Source: Sphaerolaimus hirsutus (Eukaryota; Nematoda; Chromadorea; Monhysterida; Sphaerolaimidae). From it: a stretch of DNA of 64,000 nucleotides. Each line of letters begins with the position of its first letter. Position 1 is the first letter of the stretch. The stretch spans positions 14,511,504 through 14,575,503 of the forward strand of contig OZ038460.1 of the NCBI GenBank assembly GCA_964036195.1, written 5' to 3'. The translations under genes and the position numbers were made by a program. The notes beneath the pieces were generated by a model. That model had not been told where the DNA came from, did no database searches, and was given only the letters and a program-made list of their open reading frames with translations. Shown here piece by piece: positions 50,701 through 64,000 of this stretch.

Positions 50701-53700
50701 TTTCTAAATCATTAATTATTTTTAAGTTGAGTGATATTTCTCAAATTTTTAATTTGTTCAAATTGACTCTTCGATAGATTCTTCGAAATCACATGTTAAA
50801 CAGCGCGCAAATTTTTTAGATTTTGGCATGCACGGCATGTGACAATTTTTTTGCATCGATAAAAAAAATCGTATACGGTACTGCGATCTTTATTAAATCG
50901 CGTGCCGGTACGGGTTCATGTAAACTTGCACTAAGTTACATGATTTACTTAATTCTGCTCAATTATCAATTCAAAGTGGTCACCTCTTCATTGTTGGGTC
51001 CAATCAGAAGTGCCGGTTCTCGGAAGCTAATTCCAGTGGCGAAGCCAAACGACTTTGGCAGCTGGCCAATCAACGATTCTTGTTGTGATTTCATCACATC
51101 CAAACCAGCCTGACGAGAAAACGAGTCGCTACGCTTTCAGACAAATATGAAGTGTAACACAAAGACTGCAACAACCTTGTACGCGTCACAAAGTTTGGTG
51201 CCCGGCTTCAAAGCTGCAATCACAGCTTCCTCTGCAGCCAGCAGCGACTCGTAAACAGCGGTAATCTTATCACTGGGCTCCAAAAACAACGTGCGCGCCA
51301 GATTACTACAGTAGTCGTGATAGCGGCCGCCGAGAGAACTGGGGGCAGTCCCAGACCCTGTAAAATGCCCTGTAAAATGTCAAATGTCATGCAAAGTGTC
51401 AAAAATCATGTAAAATGCCCTGCAAAATGAGAAACTGGTTTGCCATTATCCAGTGCATTTCACACGACTTTAGAAACTTTGCATGCCATTTCACATTTTA
51501 CAGGACACTTTACAGTGTCTGGGATTGGCACCAGGCGACCGCGGCGAAGTTGGCATGCTTGCGGTCGCTTTGCGCGGACATTTTCAGGCTGACCGACTCG
51601 CCCGACTGAATGATGGGCGTGTAGCAGGACTCGAGGTGGTCCACGTTGATGCCGCCCACGATCTTGCGGTCGGTGAACGCCGTCTCGCATTCTTCGGCTA
51701 GTTTCTCGTGACGCACTTTCTGGGCGTGGTGAGAACTTGTTGGCATAATGTCAGAAGGGAATTTTGGGAGGGTTTTTTAAGGTTACGAAATGATAATCAC
51801 TGTAAAAACGTACACACTCAATAATCCAACACAAAGCATTATAAACCCAATGACATGAACTGACCGACTCCCTGTCGATGATGTCAATCAATCGCTTGCG
51901 CAGCGACTTGTTCCACACGGCGACGGTGGCGTTGACGGCCGTGCGCACCAAGTCCAGCTCGGATGCTTCCTTGGGCGCCATGGCGATGCTCAGCGCCGCC
52001 GCCACGTCTTTCTGGAAATGTGACACGTGTAAACGTGTGCGTGATTACATTCAGGGACTGGACAGGTGCCAATTTCGTGTGAGCAGGCAAAAGCTAAGTA
52101 AAGTGAGAAGTGAAATGAGAAGTAAAACGTTAAAAGCGAAGTAATTTTTTTACTTCTCATTTCACTTATCTACCTCAGAAATCTAACTTCTAAAATTTAC
52201 CTTCTAACTAAAAAATTTACTTTCACTTCTAAAAATCTAACTTCTAAAGTTTTTTTTTACTTCTCCACTTATTAACTATGCACAGTCATATGATAAATCC
52301 TGCGCAAAATTATGCCACAGAGATGCTAATTTGTTTCGAAATGCACTTAGCGGTAGAATGACAAATCATGAATAAAAGACAAAGCCACGTCAAATTTACA
52401 AAGAGCATGTCAGTCACAATAAAAATCAAAAGAACCAACTACAGTAAGTGAGGCTTCTTCCAACTTTCCCCGCCAGAGGTCAATAAAATCACTGGTAACT
52501 TTTCCTTTGGGCACTTCGCCCACGTCGCCACCAGCCTCTTTTAGTTGCTCAATCATTTTCTCGAAGTTTGCGGAATCGTTGTCACTCTAAAAATAGAAAA
52601 GTGTTTTCTCTAGTGATGGCCGAGTTTTTTAACGTCTTTTTTAGAAAACGCACACATCGATGCCGTTTTTTTAAAAAAAAACAGCAACCAAAATTTTTGT
52701 ACTCATTCAGACGTTTTGCATTTTTTGGCGCGCAAGCGCGCAATTTCACATAAACATTAACACTGGCAGTCGTTTTCATTGGTTTTATTACATTTTTAGT
52801 GTAAAAGCTTGTAAAAGCATTTTGTAGCGTTCAAAAACCGTTTGAGTTAACGTTGTTTAAAAAACAGGATTGTTAAAAACAACACTTTTTCCATCCCTAC
52901 ACTTCTCATCCATCTACAACATTCAAAATGATCACACCTTGTCGCGCTGCAGGCAGGTGACACTGGGCAAGTCATTTGGGGGATTGTCAGAAACAACTCT
53001 TTGAAGGAAGTCGCATTTTTTCTTGCTTGTCAATATAGTGACTTTCTTTTTCGTGATAACAATTACGGTGTCGGTCAATTCGTATCCGAACAGCCAAGTC
53101 TGAGGGAAAGAAGAAATAAATTGCAGACGACATCACTAAGAATGGGATGACTTTTCGTTGTGTAAAATAGCTCGATATCGGATATCTACGCCGTCAACGG
53201 GTATGTCGTCCTTGGACAAGTAACGAACTCCGTCGACGTAAAATGTCGAATAAATTTGTCAAATGTCATGTAAAATATAAAGTTGCAGTAAAGATTTCGT
53301 TTTGCGCTACACTGCATATTTCACATTATACATCGCATTTGACACAATACAATGGCACAATACAGGGTGCGGAACGGCGTATTCCAGTTACCATCCCAAT
53401 GCCAGACCCAAGCGCACACGCCCACTTAGGAACTGGGATTTGCATTAATTTTTGCTCCGCCTTAATTGCTCTTGCATTTGAGAGGTCAGCGGCGGCGTGC
53501 ATCAAGGCCGCTTCTGGTAGGATTATCTTATATTGACTTTACGTGAACTTTAGTGTACAGGCATGCTTGAGTGACATTTGTGTATTTACTTTGTGGCATT
53601 TTGTTGTGTGTATACTCGGCGGACCGCAAAGTATGCGCAGAATCCTACCATAATGTGATGAAAAAAATTTGTGATAAATTTCATAATTAATTATTCCATA

Positions 53701-63438: not shown

Positions 63439-64000
63439 ATGCCAGAAGCGGCCGAGCAGCGCGACAGGATCGCCGACGGCGAGGGCAGCGGCGCGCCCTC
63501 CCAGCGCAGTTCCGGTGTGCGTAAAAGGTCCCGTTCGCGGACGCGCACACCCCCGTCGCGACGCAGGGAATCGGGTGCCAATCTCGGATACTGTGAAGGG
63601 CACTGGAAGGTGGGAAATGTCTTGTAAAGTGTCAAAAGTCATGTAAAATGCCCTGGATAATGGCCATATTGCAAGTTGCCATTTTGCAGGGCATTTTACA
63701 TGACTTTTGACACTTTGCATGACATTTTCCATCATCCAGGGCCCTTCACAGTATCTGAGACTGCCGCCAGGCAGCGGCACAGGCGGCAAACGCGACAGGC
63801 GCAGCGGCGGCGATTACAGCGACAAACTCGTTTACATATCGAATCTGTCCTACGAGATCAGGTGGCCTGAGCTGAAGGACATTCTAAAGGAGAAGGCCGG
63901 TGATGTGGCTCACGTGGAAGTGCTCACTAGCGTCTCTGGGAAGCAAAGGGCTCGGCGTATGTTTTGTTGTTGTTGTTGTTTGTTTTGGGGGATGACTAGT
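63439..64000 (+). CDS. hnRNP M-like RNA-binding protein, N-terminal part
   Basis: A nuclear pre-mRNA-binding protein with RRM domains. Exon 1, 63439-63574 (MPEAAEQRDRIADGEG, then an Arg/Ser-rich SRSRTRTPPSRRR segment); exon 2, 63771-63956 (GGKRDRRSGGD, then RRM1: KLVYISNLSYEIRWPELKD with RNP2 VYISNL, followed by DVAHVEVLTSVSGKQR). The donor is GTATGT with phase 1; the rest is beyond the window. YISNLSYEIRWPELKD and EVLTSVSGK match RRM1 of hnRNP M/MYEF2. The intron between these exons is an introner. The start codon is the first ATG after the promoter region and its choice is moderately certain. Confidence 0.85.
63575..63770 (+). mobile_element. Introner: first intron of the hnRNP M homologue (196 bp)
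   Basis: Reads GTGCCAATCTCGGATACTG ... CAGTATCTGAGACTGCCGCCAG's final AG. The inverted arms extend inward as GATACTGTGAAGGGC and complement, then AATGTC...TGTAAAGTGTCAAAAGTCATG and complement, so the whole intron folds into one hairpin. Splicing joins ..RRRESG to SGTGGKRDRR in frame. Closely related to the introner in SPT16. Confidence 0.92.

Follow-up and report, generated by a model that had tools for sequence, protein, structure and literature searches.

Inverted-Repeat Elements in the Window

The window, a 64,000-nucleotide stretch at C16:14511504-14575503 of the 348-Mb Sphaerolaimus hirsutus assembly, holds genes for SPT16, a fucosyltransferase, and an RRM-like protein, each interrupted by copies of one inverted-repeat element. 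The first-pass annotation had named five stretches as introns made by this element (51339-51531, 63575-63770, 18050-18215, 32743-33158, and 34393-36282), and profile matches place all five at these positions with inverted ends common to all. We refer to each element by the first position of its stretch and list the flanking triplets separately.

51342..51531, minus strand (sense = minus): probable introner in SPT16, GTGCCAATCCC..GGGACTGCCCC, 190 bp
51532..51534, minus strand: 5' flanking triplet of the SPT16 element, CTG in sense
51339..51341, minus strand: 3' flanking triplet of the SPT16 element, CAG in sense; predicted 3' splice site
63575..63767, plus strand: element with triplets CGG..CAG in a gene whose product resembles RRM proteins; weakly supported as hnRNP M
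63768..63770, plus strand: 3' flanking triplet CAG of the 63575 element
18053..18215, minus strand: degenerate copy, CTG..CAG; join backed by an open frame only
32746..33158, minus strand: probable introner in the fucosyltransferase gene, CTG..CTG, GT..TG boundary; uninterrupted paralogue
32743..32745, minus strand: 3' target triplet of the 32743 element, CTG in sense, non-AG
34396..36282, minus strand: long 1.9 kb copy in the fucosyltransferase gene, CTG..CTG, unrelated internal sequence
34393..34395, minus strand: 3' target triplet of the 34393 element, CTG in sense, non-AG
24488..24576, minus strand: partial copy inside the tandem duplicate of the 18-kb segment

The fucosyltransferase gene at 34393 is taken as the same gene as that at 32743, on the shared strand. 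All five stretches had been described as introns whose 3' AG abuts the element end. The terminal triplet indeed reads CAG in sense at 51339, 63575, and 18050, but it reads CTG at 32743 and 34393, where the same triplet, CTG, also stands directly before each element. The terminal CAG is a target triplet that two of the five introns lack, which does not support an AG carried by the element itself. The proposed hairpin is borne out: 51339-51531 folds at -103.9 kcal/mol (z -12.7) into a single long, very stable hairpin that brings both ends together, and the first 140 nt of the 63575 copy fold with a z of -8.8. The start pattern GTGCCANTCYC, with at most one mismatch, has 16 matches in the window vs 5.0 expected (maximum 11 across 100 shuffles). 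A 98% identical copy of the 63575 element (L002) lies ∼19 kb away.

The window also holds other repeats. Positions 18119-24480 and 24480-30828 form a tandem duplication of 6.36 kb with 99.6% identity, in the second unit of which the introner copy is truncated. Another inverted-repeat family, whose ends are GTGCCAGTTCCG-like and which the introner profile matches weakly, occupies 8785-8996 and 45505-45745, and further large inverted repeats with arms 78-98% complementary are found at 58230-59685, 59943-60221, and 16574-17729.

An Abundant Family with a CCWGG-like Target

The consensus element, from a profile of 58 copies, is 189 bp long (GTGCCAGTCCCAGACCC...GGGTCTGGGACTGCCCC), with ends GTGCCAGTCCC and GGGGCAGTCCC. 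The profile recovers all five stretches plus further pieces within the window, and it shows that the two ends are not interchangeable, one reading GTGCCA and the other GGGGCA. Median identity is 90% between copies and consensus and 83% between copies. Searching the whole genome, which the first-pass annotation had named as a check, gave 7163 + 7112 = 14,275 end-pattern matches with 2 mismatches allowed and 0 in the control. Since the two ends differ by ∼2 bases, one element may match twice, which puts the family at roughly 7,000-14,000 elements.

A similarity search of the genome returned 40 distinct places, from which L001 (the window copy) and L027 (ends not found) were left out. Our sample comprised the remaining 38 similarity copies, three window copies, and 30 pattern matches on contig C1, 71 in all; the window copies at 18050 and 34393 were treated apart. 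Sixty-six copies could be delimited and five were dropped. Of the 66, 26 were pattern-sampled, and the other 40 were either window copies or had been picked up through their resemblance to a copy taken to be genic. Three-base C(A/T)G duplications flank the element. CNG precedes 62 and follows 58 of the 66 delimited copies, the two triplets are identical in 37, and the classes are CAG..CAG (26), CTG..CAG (12), CTG..CTG (9), and other (19). The base at -4 is C in 39/66 and that at +3 is G in 45/66, which gives a palindromic, CCWGG-like target. The transposon signatures of introners, TIR and TSD, are thus both present. Mean flank GC is 0.57 for the 40 similarity or window copies and 0.505 for the 26 pattern copies, compared with 0.42 for the window. 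Stops occur in all three sense frames of 58/66 elements. By eye, a ∼198-bp subfamily (CCCAAGCCCTGTAAAGTGTAAAG..) seems to show little CTG..CAG excess among the genome-wide matches listed, as if it were less often genic.

Protein Matches across the Joined Flanks

Joined peptides were made from the sense flanks after removal of the element plus one triplet and were scanned against Pfam. In 9 genes, and for 10 elements in total, a match runs across the junction. With CAG..CAG triplets these are COPA (L010), Frizzled (L019), and Ig I-set (L011); with CTG..CAG, SPT16 and a SecD/SecF-like membrane protein (PF02355, L049); with CTG..CTG, a nicotinic-type receptor (L016), OATP (L018), and the fucosyltransferase at 32743 and 34393; and with CAG..CGG, a zinc finger (L048). 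The SPT16, COPA, and Frizzled joins align ungapped through the junction with solved chains, SPT16 over 117 residues.

The exon joins that had been read as fixed by conserved protein sequence are therefore strong for SPT16, and those at 32743 and 34393 are backed by Pfam fucosyltransferase (GT10) matches (E 2e-7 at 34393; the PDB match at 32743 is weak, E 0.0005). They are weak elsewhere. The 18050 join gives an open frame with no GT10 match and a single weak, unrelated Pfam match. At 63575, called an exact intron in hnRNP M, the RRM match (E 0.00096) falls under the Pfam cut-off and is located beyond the junction, and hnRNP M appears among four PDB matches, all of them weak. An LRR protein, the 63575 RRM protein, and a receptor ligand-binding exon (L065) match without spanning the junction, and a cadherin match starts at it. 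The Frizzled and cadherin matches point to an animal host.

We note that most sampled copies have no protein-family match. In three batches of ten peptides, two, five (two of them antisense), and eight had no Pfam match at the limits used. Among 92 sense peptides, from copies not in earlier batches plus 32743, nine families were shown, from a handful of peptides: an I-set/Ig group, two fucosyltransferase domains, the L065 receptor exon, and a weak nec1 match (L071). The same Pfam scan of 89 antisense peptides gave no match. The sense frame across the join is longer than the antisense frame in 47/66 copies (p 3e-5); in the 26 pattern-sampled copies alone it is longer in 16, which is not significant (p 0.12). 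The sample shows a dependence on orientation, and the earlier suggestion that either orientation could supply splice sites is not supported, given the 0/89 antisense result and the two differing ends.

Proposed Mechanism and the Acceptor Triplet

These findings suggest to us, with a probability of about 0.88, that the copies belong to a single introner, a non-autonomous DNA transposon of ∼189 bp with inverted repeats, whose GT end serves as the donor and whose target-site duplication serves as the acceptor, with some CTG acceptors later changed from T to A. Insertion at the CWG of a CCWGG-like target would duplicate three bases. One end of the element starts GT (GTGCCA) and the other GGG, so that a copy inserted into a transcribed exon with its GT end leading would appear in the RNA as CNG|GTGCCA...GCCCC|CNG. 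The 5' splice site would be this GT, and the duplicated target triplet behind the element would provide the 3' splice site; splicing would take out the element and one triplet and so leave the original coding sequence. A CAG triplet would provide a canonical acceptor at once, and a CTG insertion would start as a GT..TG intron, some of which may later gain the T-to-A change.

Exact whole-element counts across the genome are 721 CAG..CAG, 423 CTG..CTG, 231 CTG..CAG, and 73 CAG..CTG. Symmetric mutation would make the two mixed classes equal, and the imbalance of 231 vs 73 (binomial p 3e-20, from counts that include duplicated segments, visible in the CAG..CTG list) indicates that a downstream AG seems favoured. 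The upstream triplet is CAG in 794 and CTG in 654 (p 3e-4), so CTG insertions are fewer yet far from absent. Half of the ten junction-spanning elements would nevertheless end in something other than the canonical AG if removed exactly (four TG, one GG). Either this animal accepts TG/GG acceptors or the genes concerned are interrupted.

We give roughly even odds to the explanation that the non-AG copies are unspliced at TG/GG, their genes being interrupted, pseudogenes, spliced at a nearby AG, or carriers of recent segregating insertions, with the family otherwise an ordinary AG-requiring introner. Both asymmetries above fit this explanation, as do the remaining SPT16 introns, which are GT..YAG by eye. 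Eight CTG..CTG copies are also nearer the consensus than 24 CAG..CAG copies (medians 0.925 vs 0.90) and perhaps therefore younger. Against it, 4/10 junction-spanning elements, in three genes with open flanking frames, are CTG..CTG, and two of these (L016 and L018) already diverge 7-9% from the consensus.

The AGs near the five non-AG ends point in both directions. Distances here are in nt to the element's end, and frame is counted from a donor that is in phase with the first GT of the element. The fucosyltransferase copy at 32743 has in-frame AGs 9 upstream and 9, 24, 27, and 33 downstream, and the OATP copy (L018) has none upstream within 45 but an in-frame AG 24 downstream; both arrangements would allow a nearby AG to be used. 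The receptor copy (L016) has AGs 11, 19, and 31 upstream, none in frame; the zinc finger copy (L048) has out-of-frame AGs on both sides (19 and 31 upstream, 10 and 28 downstream) and an in-frame AG 42 upstream; and 34393 has no AG in the 45 nt upstream, an out-of-frame AG 17 downstream, and an in-frame AG 48 downstream. These last three of the five lack an in-frame AG within 40 nt, which speaks against use of a nearby AG. Regardless of frame, every one of the five has an AG within 28 nt; three have it upstream, and the other two have it downstream only. A GTAAAA donor at +18 may, in addition, allow a six-codon extension. An internal TTTTACAG was considered as a general feature near the element end and rejected, as at least two of the five lack it there; this somewhat lowers the odds of TG/GG acceptor use.

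In human, TG acceptors require an AG close by, and when mutation turns the acceptor AG into TG, other AGs are used (PMC2374985, available text). In view of this dependence and of the AG alternatives near the TG/GG ends, we infer TG/GG acceptor use rather than observe it, and failure to splice at these ends is at least as likely. Our tentative proposal, which we hold to be possible but doubtful, is that the target letter determines the acceptor and that, in many genes, GT..TG introns and some GT..GG introns are tolerated by the spliceosome. The first step may rely on an AG close by and the second on the terminal CNG, brought into place by the hairpin, and selection would slowly turn CTG into CAG. 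Duplication of the U2AF large subunit was considered and set aside, as there is a single clear locus (G000:C6:10838482-10841607) and no piece above the family cut-off.

Probable Intron Gain at Two Positions

The fucosyltransferase peptide across the 32743 junction is uninterrupted on C4 (residues 3-76 in 222 bp) and at C13:11.51 Mb (residues 4-75), and a weak fourth match on C6 also spans the junction. A third place, C13:26.79 Mb, ends at residue 60, six beyond the junction; since even the copy in the window extends four residues past it by chance, this match is ambiguous. The C4 DNA reads gtggcTTGGtttgtgagcaattgc where the joined window gene reads gtggcCTGGattgtgagcaattgc, which gives one paralogous empty site. 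The Frizzled peptide is likewise uninterrupted at three other places, once on C9 and twice on C14. These comparisons, with paralogues and not orthologues, support the notion that the introner created an intron where none existed at the fucosyltransferase and Frizzled positions. The introns in the seven other genes, outside this two-gene comparison, could be old.

It is accordingly improbable that the elements entered pre-existing introns and that their ends came to coincide with splice sites later: both ends equal exon ends in ten elements, and the paralogues are uninterrupted at both positions compared. The copy that does suit such an origin is L065, which lies directly after the receptor ligand-binding exon and restores no exon further downstream, possibly an insertion at the donor of an old intron; not every copy, then, can be taken for a new intron. 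With this qualification the element is very probably an introner, as first proposed, given its thousands of copies, the ten junction-spanning elements, and the two uninterrupted positions. Many similar introns are predicted, with similarity reaching both splice sites, which are placed from protein matches.

Equally improbable is removal driven mainly by the hairpin and not by the ordinary spliceosome. The very stable hairpin joins both ends, some 3' ends are TG/GG, and the non-conventional introns of euglenids offer a parallel for hairpin-dependent removal, but the AG skew and the GT at the consensus 5' end indicate the spliceosome. For fungal introners, others have proposed that copies spread through reverse splicing of RNA (PMC9860276). 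Such a route would be in keeping with the exact intron-like boundaries here but is very improbable in the face of the inverted repeats, the duplicated 3 bp, and the palindrome in the target, all of which fit DNA transposition.

Candidate Transposon Group

The CWG duplication, the animal host, and the GGG terminus agree with those of NuwaI, a group of PIF/Harbinger-like transposons, whose transposase would then move the element; one end reads GGGGCA, as for a NuwaI-type TIR start, and the other GTGCCA. The genome has 163 PF13359 matches, with 150 candidates scored. No autonomous partner with matching ends was found in the two Harbinger families examined, A (L081 and L082, 99.4% identical over 4.7 kb) and B (L083): their right ends, the only ones compared, read GGCCCC in reverse complement, so neither is supported as partner. 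The element is a candidate member of the NuwaI group. The 1.9-kb copy at 34396..36282 contains short frames only, in which no transposase was recognised by eye. In the window, inverted-repeat elements at 41505-41680 and 44663-44856 have ends GGCCCTGCGCACACTAG that by eye resemble those of family A.

An introner copy (L083:624-815, CTG..CAG) lies in the first coding exon of the family B transposase gene. Its joined frame aligns with the uninterrupted family A relative (38% identity, E 4e-26); the joined piece has no Pfam match at the limits used. This looks like a transposon gene carrying a spliceable transposon. The domain of family A contains extra codons, which were considered as an introner; this idea was rejected, as by eye they look like ordinary introns.

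Comparison with Known Systems

Introners with TIRs and TSDs were reportedly described by Huff in 2016, and horizontal transfer of introners is said to be the subject of a 2025 study. The origin of new introns is an old open question. This family is numerous enough that the whole path could be traced in a single genome, from insertion through scarless exon joining to a target-derived acceptor shift towards AG. Constitutive use of TG acceptors, if real, would also make the family a natural test of the spliceosome's strictness for AG.

Animal introners are rare: the 2022 survey by Gozashti, in its available text, describes introners with TIRs and TSDs, places animal introners in two groups, and gives families of 5 to more than 2,000 copies (PMC9860276). 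It also describes Chrysochromulina introners that carry the 5' site, co-opt the 3' site, and have no TIRs. As in that survey, a DNA element here appears to make introns by exon insertion, with one splice site supplied by the element itself and the TSD providing the second, as in Chrysochromulina. The differences are the 3-bp CWG target in an animal host, the non-AG ends of half of the junction-spanning elements, and the thousands of copies, though only some are supported as introns. We found no description of an introner with such a target, host, and acceptor behaviour in the literature searched, and no PIF/Harbinger introner, most subscription papers lying outside the scope of that search.

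NuwaI transposons, a group of PHIS transposons, duplicate a CWG target, occur in animals, and usually have TIRs that start GGG (PMC4482050, available text). Our element shares the target duplication, the animal host, and the GGGGCA end. It differs in that its other end starts GTG and that no transposase with these ends was found in the two families examined, and the available text of that paper does not mention intron formation for NuwaI.

In the tunicate Fritillaria, non-canonical introns make up 95% of the total and there are duplicated U2AF subunits, with introner transposons named as one possible source of weak splice sites (PMC13326754, available text). Sphaerolaimus would likewise be an animal with non-GT/AG introns, here predicted from sequence, but it has one clear U2AF large-subunit locus and GT..YAG introns in SPT16. 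The human TG 3' splice sites are an alternative to AG, not constitutive, with a TG-AG distance limit of 28 nt (PMC2374985, available text). The predicted introns that end in TG resemble them, with an AG within this distance on one side in 5/5 non-AG elements; they differ in that 3/5 have no in-frame AG within 40 nt.
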